From Pseudomonadota bacterium (GTDB taxonomy: Bacteria; Pseudomonadota; Alphaproteobacteria; Dongiales; Dongiaceae): a DNA stretch of 64,000 bases. Made by a program: the position numbers and the translations under genes. The notes beneath the pieces are model-generated. The model did not search any database. It was not told the DNA's origin and worked only from the letters and a program-made list of their open reading frames with translations. Below, one piece after another: positions 52,430 to 56,436 of this stretch. The first letter of the stretch is position 1. Each line of letters begins with the position of its first letter. The DNA lies in the NCBI GenBank assembly GCA_021792365.1, contig JAJYUT010000004.1, forward strand, positions 434,001 to 498,000, in the 5' to 3' direction.

Positions 52430-53506
52430 CTATCCGTTGACCGCAAATCTGACGGCATGCACCGGCGGCAGGTGGTGCGTCACGGCGTGCCAGTGGTCGC
52501 CCTGGTCTTCGGTGACGTAGAGGTTGCCGGTGGTGGAGCCGAAGGCGAGGGTGTCGCCAGTCTCGGCGATATCGAGGGCGTGGCGCAGGATGAGGTCGTA
52601 GCCGAAGCCGGTGGGCAGGCCGTTCGACAGGCTCTCGAAGGTCTTGCCGCCGTCGCGGGTGCGGGCCGCGACGAACTTGCCGTCCTGCGGCACGCGGAGC
52701 TCGTCCTTGATCGCGGGGACGAACCATGCCCTCGCGGGATCGCTCGGATGGACCGCGACGCCGAAGCCGAAACGCGGCCCGGCGAACTGCCAGGTCTCCA
52801 GATCGTTGGTGCTGTAGAAGATGCCGTTGTGGTGCTGGCACCAGAAGTGATCCGGCTTGTTCCGGCACTGCACGATGCGGTGCGGGTCCTGGATCGCCGG
52901 ATCCTCACGCCGGTCGGGCGGCATGTATTCGGCGAACAGCCCCCTGGAGCGGCAGGCCCAGGTGGCGCCGGCATCCTCGCTGCGCCACACCCCGCCGCAG
53001 GAGATCGCGATGACTATGCGGCTGGACTTGCGCGGGTCGACGCAGATCGTATGCAGCGCCGTGTCGTCCGTGCCGCCGCCGAACCACTTGGCGCGGTCCG
53101 GCAGGTTCCACAGGCCTTCGACCAATTGCCACGCGCCGTCGCCATTCCGGTCGTTACGGAACAGCGCGGCGGGCAATGAGCCGGCCCAGACCAGCCCAGG
53201 CTGGTCGGCGCCGCCGGCTTCCAGCGCCCAGATCTGGTTGAGGCTCGGCGCGTCCTTGTCATCGGATTTCGGCAGCGTGGGCATGGCGAGCTCGTCCCAG
53301 GTTGCACCCTGGTTGGTGGAGCGGTGCAGCTTGGCACCGAAATGGCCGAGATTGAGCGCGGCGTACCAGTTGCCGCTGCGCGGATCGGCGAGGAACGCCG
53401 TGACCGGCTGGCCGAGGAACGCCACATAGGTCTGCTGCCATTTGCCGCCGATGCGCTGGAAACGGAACAGGCCCTTGCGCGTCGAGACGAACAGATCCTG
53501 CGTCAT
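52430..53506 (-). CDS. BNR/sialidase-like beta-propeller protein
   Basis: A 358-residue protein with repeated Asp-box-like motifs (for example STNQGATWDE, SEDAGATWAC, STNDLETWQF, RTRDGGKTFESL, TEDQGDHWHA), the sign of a BNR-type beta-propeller like sialidases or Vps10-like proteins. There is no signal peptide, so it appears cytoplasmic, and I see no clear sialidase arginine triad. The frame is open to 53731, but ATG 53506 has GGGGG 9 nt upstream and gives the clean N-terminus MTQDLFVSTRKGLFRF. It follows a MoaD/ThiS-like gene by 19 nt and is surely co-transcribed. The function is unknown; an Asp-box propeller may bind a partner rather than cut sugars. Confidence 0.85.
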   Translation of the reverse strand: MTQDLFVSTRKGLFRFQRIGGKWQQTYVAFLGQPVTAFLADPRSGNWYAALNLGHFGAKLHRSTNQGATWDELAMPTLPKSDDKDAPSLNQIWALEAGGADQPGLVWAGSLPAALFRNDRNGDGAWQLVEGLWNLPDRAKWFGGGTDDTALHTICVDPRKSSRIVIAISCGGVWRSEDAGATWACRSRGLFAEYMPPDRREDPAIQDPHRIVQCRNKPDHFWCQHHNGIFYSTNDLETWQFAGPRFGFGVAVHPSDPARAWFVPAIKDELRVPQDGKFVAARTRDGGKTFESLSNGLPTGFGYDLILRHALDIAETGDTLAFGSTTGNLYVTEDQGDHWHAVTHHLPPVHAVRFAVNG

Positions 53507-53525
53507 ATCGATCAGCCCCCTTTGG

Positions 53526-53795
53526 TCATCCGCCTGACAATGCCTGCATGACATAGATCTCGGAATTCGGTGCGACCCGCCGGCCGAGATCCTTCTTGTC
53601 GAGCAGCAATTCGCCGTCGATGAAGACCGCCACGTGCCGGCGCAGCCGCCCCTGGTCGTCGAGAATGTAGGACCGCACCCTGGGCGCGGTCGCGAAATAG
53701 GCGTCCAGCGCCCCGCCCAGCGTGGCCGCATCGACCGGCATCGGCCCCGCCGGCGCCACGTGGCGCAGATGGGAGGTTACATGGATTGTCGGCAC
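53526..53795 (-). CDS. MoaD/ThiS-like ubiquitin-fold protein ending in Gly-Gly
   Basis: An 89-residue beta-grasp protein. It begins PTIHVTSHLRHVAP, has ATLGGALDAYFATAP and RHVAVFIDGELLLDKKDL, and ends EIYVMQALSGG. The terminal Gly-Gly is the feature used for adenylation and thiocarboxylate or isopeptide formation in MoaD, ThiS and ubiquitin-like proteins. No MoaE, ThiG or MoeB gene is next to it, so molybdopterin or thiazole synthesis is not indicated. The start is GTG 53795, with GGAGA upstream; a longer frame to 53852 is less likely. It is the first gene of a two-gene unit with a BNR propeller protein. Confidence 0.85.
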   Translation of the reverse strand: MPTIHVTSHLRHVAPAGPMPVDAATLGGALDAYFATAPRVRSYILDDQGRLRRHVAVFIDGELLLDKKDLGRRVAPNSEIYVMQALSGG

Positions 53796-53981
53796 CAGGC
53801 TTCTCCCCAGCCTTCCGAGGCTGAGAAAGCTATCCCAGGGAACTGTCCACATTCAATCGCCGAAGGCTGGCAATCGCCGAAGGCTGGGCATTAGAGGGGC
53901 GCCGATGCCCTTGCGACTCAGCGTCAATCCGTGTCGAATCCGCGGCACCATGCCGGGTGCGGCAGCCACAGACTGAGAGCC

Positions 53982-54824: not shown

Positions 54825-54939
54825 ATCCGCATGACATATCGGGAATCGGCCACGAATCAGTGGATGCAATGCCGTTGCCGTTGCAACCTTCCGGTCCCAT
54901 CTGTCGTAATTGAGTAGGTTCCATTGTCAGGTCAGGATC

Positions 54940-56436
54940 ATGGCGCGTGACCCGCGTTCCGCATTCGACCGTTTCCTGAATACCGGCCTGGACGATCTGC
55001 TGGCGCCCGGCGAGACCGGCGACGGCCTGGCCGAGGTGCTGGCTCTGCTGCGCCGAGCCGCCGATCGTGTGCCGGCCTATGGCGAGATGCTGAAGGGGGC
55101 CGGCATCAATCCGGCCGACATCCACGACGCGGCCGACTTCGCCAGGCTGCCGCTCCTCAACAAGGAAAACTATGTCCGCCGGTTCCCCCTGGAAGCATCG
55201 GTGGAAGGCGGCGATCTCGCGGCGTGCGATTTCTTTGCCGTGTCTTCGGGCTCGACGGGAGAGCCGACGCTGTGGCCGCGCGGGCTTCATCACGAGCTTC
55301 CGGTCGCGGTGCGGTTCGAGCAGGTGCTGCGTGACAATTTCCGCGCCCATGAGCGGCGCACGCTGGCGGTGGTGTGCTTCGCGCTTGGCTCCTGGGTCGG
55401 TGGCATGTACACCACCTCGTGCCTGCGCTGGATCGCGGCGAAGAACTACCCGCTGCTGATCGTGACGCCCGGCAACAAGATCGACGAGATCCTGCGCGTG
55501 GTGAAGCGCCTCGCGCCGGATTTCGAGCAGACGGTCCTGTTCGGCTATCCGCCGTTTCTCAAGGAAGTCGTCGATGCGGGCCGCAGCGAGAAGATCGCGT
55601 GGGGCAAGTTCAATGTGCGCCTGGTCACCGCGGGCGAAGTCTTCAGCGAGACCTGGCGCGACTTGGTGCTCGAGCGGCTGGAGCAGGATGAGGGGCTCAA
55701 CAGCATCGCGTCGGTCTATGGCACGGCCGATGCCGGCGTCCTCGGCAACGAGACGCCGTTCTCGGTGGCGATCCGCCGTTTCCTCAGCGAGAGGCCGGAG
55801 GCAGCCAAGGCCATGTTCGGCGAGGAGCGGCTGCCGACGCTCTGCCAATACGATCCCACATCGCGCTATTTCGAGGTGGTCGAGGGCGGGACGCTCGCCT
55901 TCAGCGGCGACAATGGCGCGCCGCTGATCCGCTATCACATTGCCGACCAGGGAGGCATCTACAGCTTCGAAGCGATGCGCGCCAGGCTCGCGGAGTTCCA
56001 GTTCGATCCGGAGACCGCCTTGATGCAGGCCGGGCTCGGCCGCGCGCGCCGGCTGCCTTTCGTCTACGTGTTCGGGCGGGCCAATTTCACCGTGTCGTTC
56101 TTCGGAGCGAACATCTTCCCGGAGACCATCAGTCTCGCGCTCGAGAAGCCGAGCCTCAGCCGCTGGACGACCGGCAAGTTCGTGATGGAGGTGAAGGAGG
56201 GCCTGGCCGAGCGGCCGCGCTTCACCGTCGCGATCGAGCTGGCCGACAAGGAAGCCGCCGATCCCACCCGCATCGAGCTGGCCGAGCGCGAGATTCTTGA
56301 CACGCTGCTCGCGCATAACAGCGAATACGCGAACTACGTGTCGAAAGAGGATCAGCAGCCGATAGTGTCGCTGTGGTCGAAGGGGCACCCGGACTATTTC
56401 CCCGTCGGCGTTAAGCATCGCTACAGCAGGCGCTGA
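54940..56436 (+). CDS. PaaK-like adenylate-forming ligase (phenylacetate-CoA ligase family)
   Basis: A 498-residue AMP-forming ligase. The N-terminal half has RVPAYGEMLKGAGINPADIHDAADFARLPLLNKENY, typical of PaaK. The phosphate-binding loop is VSSGSTGEPTLWPRG, then ITAGEVFSETW-like VTAGEVFSETW and SVYGTADAGVLGNET, with the R-x-x-D-like YHIADQGGIYSF. The C-terminal part (FVYVFGRANFTVSFFGANIFPETI) differs from standard PaaK, which suggests another acid substrate or partner. The frame is open to 54910, but ATG 54940 follows an AGG-rich site. There is no acyl carrier or thioesterase nearby. CoA versus other acceptors cannot be decided. Confidence 0.82.
   Translation: MARDPRSAFDRFLNTGLDDLLAPGETGDGLAEVLALLRRAADRVPAYGEMLKGAGINPADIHDAADFARLPLLNKENYVRRFPLEASVEGGDLAACDFFAVSSGSTGEPTLWPRGLHHELPVAVRFEQVLRDNFRAHERRTLAVVCFALGSWVGGMYTTSCLRWIAAKNYPLLIVTPGNKIDEILRVVKRLAPDFEQTVLFGYPPFLKEVVDAGRSEKIAWGKFNVRLVTAGEVFSETWRDLVLERLEQDEGLNSIASVYGTADAGVLGNETPFSVAIRRFLSERPEAAKAMFGEERLPTLCQYDPTSRYFEVVEGGTLAFSGDNGAPLIRYHIADQGGIYSFEAMRARLAEFQFDPETALMQAGLGRARRLPFVYVFGRANFTVSFFGANIFPETISLALEKPSLSRWTTGKFVMEVKEGLAERPRFTVAIELADKEAADPTRIELAEREILDTLLAHNSEYANYVSKEDQQPIVSLWSKGHPDYFPVGVKHRYSRR

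Follow-up and report, generated by a model that had tools for sequence, protein, structure and literature searches.

A conserved bacterial gene pair encoding a Gly-Gly-tailed ubiquitin-like protein and an Asp-box propeller

Why does a bacterium encode a ubiquitin-like protein (Ubl) with a Gly-Gly end directly beside an Asp-box (BNR) propeller? The question is raised by a window of 64,000 nt (i.e., the whole stretch of DNA analysed here) from a member of the Dongiaceae, contig JAJYUT010000004.1, positions 434,001–498,000. A first-pass annotation, made from the sequence alone, had described such a pair with 19 nt between the genes and proposed that it may serve sulfur transfer or protein modification, its purpose being unknown. 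Both genes and the exact gap were confirmed, and the sections below ask whether the two belong together and what they might do.

The two genes of the window

The Ubl gene lies at 53526..53795 on the reverse strand, as do all elements of the pair, and encodes 89 aa from a GTG start that is preceded by a Shine-Dalgarno-like GGGGAG (53803..53808). An ATG at 53852 is an alternative upstream start which could give a longer product, and in the Dongia deserti homologue (L002, 89% identical) the frame does not stay open as far upstream as this ATG. The protein ends in IYVMQALSGG immediately before the stop codon; the QALSGG codons occupy 53529..53546, and A85, S87, G88 and G89 are invariant in the alignment. 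The propeller gene comes next in the order of transcription (52430..53506, 358 aa, intact), separated by an intergenic stretch (53507..53525) with a Shine-Dalgarno-like AAAGGGGG ahead of the propeller ATG. Because of this 19-nt gap and the AAAGGGGG motif, co-transcription is likely. No signal peptide is evident from the propeller sequence, and the genome contains a single match to the propeller family at E 1e-20.

The Ubl had been called MoaD/ThiS-like. It shares the Ubl superfamily and the Gly-Gly tail with MoaD and ThiS, but it is closer to CysO and SAMP1 than to these housekeeping proteins. It scores below all MoaD/ThiS equivalog cut-offs, and indeed below every curated cut-off (e.g., 17 bits against Pfam ThiS, sub-threshold), and it lies outside a cofactor operon. 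The absence of a nearby cofactor-synthesis gene, already remarked in the first pass, holds up, as the genome's own MoaD (TIGR01682 over cut-off), its ThiS-like protein and its sole full-length E1 (MoeB-like) are all on other contigs. The best NCBIfam match is SAMP1 (NF041918, 38.2 bits, cut-off 60), SAMP1 is also the best single-sequence match in the PDB (E 3.6e-4), and the nearest solved relatives in a profile search are CysO (3dwg_C, E 5e-8), SAMP1 and 4n6e_B, a ThiS/MoaD family protein. In an AF2 model of a natural Ubl-propeller fusion, the Ubl domain adopts the beta-beta-alpha-beta order of a beta-grasp fold with pLDDT above 90. Whether the paired Ubls share a single origin relative to CysO is only weakly supported by the tree (42/53, from 90 columns only).

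The tail is strongly conserved among homologues, a point on which the idea of a shared system had been made to depend. All 121 distinct paired Ubls (excluding one spurious second domain in L049) end in GG, 120 of them in [S/T]GG. A further 13 Ubls have a CysO-like PAVAGG tail, and in the DNA fetched for these no propeller is present. When 72 paired Ubls were classified by what follows the motif, 59 stop exactly at GG, four are fused to the propeller and nine are extended, six by 1–3 residues and three by more. The Ubl frames at L007:8631-8825, L044:1450-1500 and L050 continue for 17 or 65 residues past QALSGG, which may reflect processing or sequence error.

Conservation of the pair

We searched a sample of 241 genomes of Alphaproteobacteria, where the Ubl profile matches 39 genomes and the propeller profile (threshold E under 1e-50) matches 42. 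Both genes are present in 38 of the 43 genomes that have either, and they are adjacent in 37. One genome has the Ubl without the propeller (G066, tail ALAGG), and four have the propeller without the Ubl (G125, G129, G212, G236). This pairing is far beyond chance (Fisher p ~1.5e-38, with no correction for phylogeny). Samples from Actinomycetota, Planctomycetota and Gammaproteobacteria agree: in the fetched loci, the propeller is beside 28/30 planctomycete and 17/21 gammaproteobacterial Ubls. It also adjoins the Ubl in 35 of the first 36 homologous loci, the exception (L013) being at a contig end. The pair is found in Alpha-, Beta- and Gammaproteobacteria, Planctomycetota, Acidobacteriota and Actinomycetota, so the first-pass annotation's other worry, that the pairing might not be conserved, can be set aside. 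On plasmid or megaplasmid records, 10/10 Ubl matches adjoin a propeller, with pairs in Burkholderia, Paraburkholderia, Cupriavidus metallidurans, Mitsuaria and Pseudomonas aeruginosa (pZYPA1927).

Both gene orders occur. The clade that contains the window (40 rows, support 100/99) and one actinobacterial clade have the Ubl first, and others have the propeller first, so adjacency has outlived rearrangement. Four actinobacterial ORFs (L076, L089, L092, L094), which are stop-to-stop reading frames and hence predicted proteins, fuse the two in frame and keep the Gly-Gly at the junction as AISGG or AVSGG, with the Ubl ending ~8 residues ahead of the first propeller strand. The AF2 model of a natural fusion has a pTM of 0.83 and a low-confidence linker. 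The Ubl and propeller distance matrices are correlated (r 0.88, compared with a label-permutation maximum of 0.19). Because the genes stay together across phyla and sometimes fuse, we consider it very probable that they make up one two-part system, i.e., a dedicated functional pair.

Two further observations concern individual genomes. The P. aeruginosa pZYPA1927 pair (L184) sits in a chromosomal-looking stretch with PmpM and RhtA genes; gene order suggests that the corresponding PAO1 genes may lie around PA1355-PA1356. A role in adhesion and biofilm has been attributed to PA1356 in one paper; we give this no evidential weight for the propeller, with which PA1356 is only presumed to correspond. 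Five planctomycete genomes (G471, G480, G500, G529 and G558) have three matches each to the broader Ubl family.

No conserved third gene emerged from clustering ~3,560 ORFs around 56 pair loci and running Pfam on the 106 nearest neighbours, which returned nothing beyond widespread families and the propeller with its shadow ORFs. The same survey found no sulfur-metabolism gene consistently beside the pair and no conserved E2-, E3- or JAB-type gene near it. With no recurring third gene, the pair is therefore best described as a two-gene module relying on a general E1 and sulfur supply. The PhyH and PaaK-like genes of the window, which the first-pass annotation thought might be connected, adjoin the pair within the genus (L002, L003) but at none of the other loci examined, so this link is unsupported. 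We rejected these two, the indolepyruvate oxidoreductase and the acyl-CoA ligase as parts of the system, given that no loci except the two near Dongia ones hold close homologues (for the acyl-CoA ligase, two further loci give weak matches); for the PhyH, PaaK-like and oxidoreductase neighbours, the shared gene order does not reach beyond the genus. The PaaK-like protein itself (54910-56433, forward strand, 508 aa) has no Pfam match, and its NCBIfam matches to phenylacetate-CoA ligase are weak and far sub-threshold. Elsewhere, MarR-family regulators, matched in 7 of the neighbours surveyed, directly flank the pair in ~7 loci (including L144, L145, L146, L147, L150 and L159), mostly in an alphaproteobacterial clade with reversed gene order.

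The propeller and its invariant residues

The AF2 model of the window propeller (68 homologues, mean pLDDT 95.2) is seven-bladed, and its far best structural match is 3b7f (Foldseek E 1.7e-31, Z 48.5, rmsd 1.7 over 346 residues). This protein (Reut_B4987 of Cupriavidus JMP134, a putative BNR glycosyl hydrolase) belongs to the window propeller's family, and its crystal structure, released in 2007, came with no known function. The published description gives it seven blades and a pore measuring ~9 by 11 angstrom, and lists the function as "not known" (PMC2716378). The next neighbours are GH74, sortilin and YCF48 propellers at 11–20% identity, and they include the sortilin-neurotensin and YCF48-D1 peptide complexes. 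Conserved Asp residues at alignment positions 65, 120, 178, 234 and 285 identify the family as Asp-box propellers; the Pfam BNR match of the window protein is sub-threshold. Residue 120 of the window propeller (53147-53149) is Arg, whereas in 97% of homologues an Asp-box Asp occupies this position.

The Asp-box architecture is shared with GH33 sialidases (PMC2716378), GH74 xyloglucanases, sortilin and YCF48, but the catalytic acidic and Tyr residues of the glycosidases are not conserved in this family. No Glu or Tyr column reaches 80% across the 68 propellers, where a GH33 sialidase would have a catalytic Tyr/Glu pair. The first-pass view that sialidase catalysis is not evident is thereby supported, and for the same reason the annotation "exo-alpha-sialidase" is probably wrong. 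That RefSeq name, together with GH74 as a distant structural neighbour, would be the case for chance neighbours with no functional link, the propeller being an ordinary sialidase-like glycosidase. We regard this as extremely improbable: chance is refuted by the survey, in which adjacency persists across phyla through order flips and fusions, and the propeller lacks not only a conserved Glu or Tyr but also an evident signal peptide, and most of its conserved Asp residues are Asp-box positions.

The propeller alignment comprises 68 paired sequences and nine comparison sequences, i.e., propellers for which the fetched DNA contains no Ubl, plus 3b7f, whatever its gene neighbours. Seven polar residues are invariant in all of these: K11 (53474..53476), S169, H209, Q224, H226, R271 (52694..52696) and R308 (52583..52585), with H209, Q224 and H226 in one segment, HRIVQC...WCQHH (52829..52882). 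The Asp-box residue D178 is likewise invariant. Strand order suggests that the invariant residues are at the ends of strand 2 or the starts of strand 1, which would place them on the top face, the ligand-binding side in all known Asp-box glycosidases (PMC2716378). All seven polar residues are kept in 3b7f and in the Ubl-less propellers L132-L135, L186, L190 and L191. The set is therefore not merely a tail-binding site, and the propeller can act without the Ubl. Because the set persists in this way, its ligand is probably a common anionic one and not the Ubl tail alone. K11 was considered as a Ubl attachment site and rejected, as Ubl-less propellers also have it invariantly. Columns specific to paired propellers are few, mostly hydrophobic or Gly/Pro, and confounded by phylogeny, and there is no conserved Cys for a persulfide relay.

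Some Ubl-less propellers are worth describing in their own right. L133 is a lone propeller without a Ubl neighbour within the main clade. On a Rhodobacter sp. CZR27 plasmid (L186:2583-6110), a Ubl-less propeller of the same family is divergent to the ergothioneine genes egtB-egtD, an arrangement not found in the rhodobacterial records L190 and L191.

The peptide complexes of sortilin and YCF48 suggest by analogy that the Ubl could be a regulatory or folding subunit, its tail held in the propeller pore in a stable non-covalent complex with no activation chemistry. The size of the 3b7f pore and the ~8-residue spacing in the direct fusions would suit such an arrangement. However, the tail is not free in the fusions and carboxy-extended Ubls, and Ubl-less propellers retain the pocket residues. 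An invariant Gly-Gly is also the hallmark of E1 chemistry, so we think a purely non-covalent role unlikely.

A candidate sulfur carrier and its known relatives

The first-pass annotation had asked which E1-like enzyme accompanies the pair, and at the loci none does. The activating enzyme would have to be the shared MoeB-type E1. The window genome has one MoeB-like E1, with an open frame of 260 aa and no sign of a rhodanese domain, and an E1 is present in all 10 other tested genomes. No JAB peptidase in the window genome is over the cut-off, PF14464 giving at best a partial match of 23.1 bits (cut-off 25). With one MoeB-like E1 and no such peptidase, carrier chemistry is favoured over a reversible conjugation cycle.

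By analogy with CysO, our preferred reading, which we hold with a little under even confidence, is that the pair carries sulfur: the cell's single MoeB would charge the Ubl, and the propeller would be its dedicated acceptor. The two proteins would form a self-contained module working like CysO with its enzyme. First, a general MoeB-type E1 would adenylate the Ubl at its terminal Gly, which a general sulfurtransferase would convert to a thiocarboxylate. The Ubl would then dock on the propeller, which would pass the thiocarboxylate sulfur to a small anionic metabolite bound there.

The observed basis for this is the pairing, the [S/T]GG tail, the fusions, the propeller fold, the conserved residue set and the single MoeB. 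Counting for the sulfur carrier are the pairing across phyla in both orders, the fusions, the matrix correlation, CysO and SAMP1 as nearest relatives, and a CysO-CysM parallel (below). Counting against it are the equal invariance of the polar set in Ubl-less propellers, the lack of a conserved Cys or a sulfur gene neighbour, and the processing step that extensions and fusions beyond GG would need. The main tension concerns the E1: in M. tuberculosis it is MoeZR, not MoeBR, that loads CysO (PMC3227635), while the MoeB of the window genome gives no indication of a rhodanese domain. In sum, the first-pass proposal of a carrier or modifier pair stands as regards the pair and its Gly-Gly, both conserved across phyla, and needs correcting as regards the unsupported PhyH/PaaK link and the closeness to MoaD/ThiS.

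Alternatively, the Ubl could be a protein modifier, conjugated via its Gly-Gly to lysines of other proteins as SAMP1 is, and the propeller could be its substrate adaptor or receptor, adaptor being a common role of propeller folds. SAMPs form conjugates (PMC2948915), and SAMP1 is the top NCBIfam match of the Ubl; moreover, a few extra C-terminal residues, as seen in some homologues, are reminiscent of Ubl precursors. The SAMP1 match is nevertheless below the curated cut-off, and neither the missing JAB peptidase nor the lack of E2-, E3- or JAB-type neighbours fits, which makes the modifier role doubtful.

The Ubl might also be the substrate, its C-terminus being trimmed or released by the propeller, which would act as processing enzyme or deconjugase in place of the missing JAB peptidase. 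The fusions and the 1–3 residue extensions past GG need trimming, and the propeller has its invariant His/Gln/His/Arg/Lys set. But the gene already stops at GG in most paired Ubls (59/72), and we know of no Asp-box propeller acting as such a peptidase, so this is very unlikely. A defence system was rejected as well, with no PADLOC match to an anti-phage Ubl system at E 0.01 for the Ubl, the propeller or the fusion.

It is possible, though short of even, that the pair represents a bacterial Ubl pathway, widespread and as yet undescribed, with the propeller as the dedicated acceptor of a Ubl thiocarboxylate or the receptor of a Ubl conjugate. If so, the pathway would yield a sulfur-containing metabolite or a modification. 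The literature searched on prokaryotic Ubls (subscription journals were largely outside the search) makes no mention of propeller, BNR or sialidase partners, i.e., it does not report a propeller fold in the Ubl-partner role. The Ubl and the propeller carry separate annotations, the one "MoaD/ThiS family protein", the other "exo-alpha-sialidase" or "sialidase family", and in many genomes, among them those of Burkholderia, C. metallidurans CH34 and P. aeruginosa, the sialidase label obscures what is probably a Ubl partner. The conserved pair with its natural fusions provides an easily testable hypothesis, and it could reveal a new sulfur-transfer or Ubl pathway.

Two known systems frame the comparison. 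SAMP1 of Haloferax shares the beta-grasp fold, length and terminal GG with the window Ubl, but it is archaeal, the window Ubl scores below its equivalog cut-off, and the SAMP literature examined does not mention a propeller partner. CysO, of the M. tuberculosis CysO-CysM-Mec+ cysteine pathway, has an adjacent partner gene, as in our pair, and its thiocarboxylate, formed through MoeZR, feeds CysM (PMC3227635). The two systems differ in the tail (AGG in CysO, [S/T]GG in the paired Ubls), in the Mec+/JAB peptidase, for which the window genome has no counterpart over the cut-off, and in the partner, a PLP cysteine synthase there and a propeller here. A natural in-frame CysO-CysM fusion occurs in Actinomycetota (L080/L182), a 432-aa frame with AVAGG kept at the junction, and the internal GG of L080 parallels that of the Ubl-propeller fusion L094. 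A Ubl with a dedicated partner is an already known kind of system, and what appears new here, set against the papers searched, is the partner's fold.
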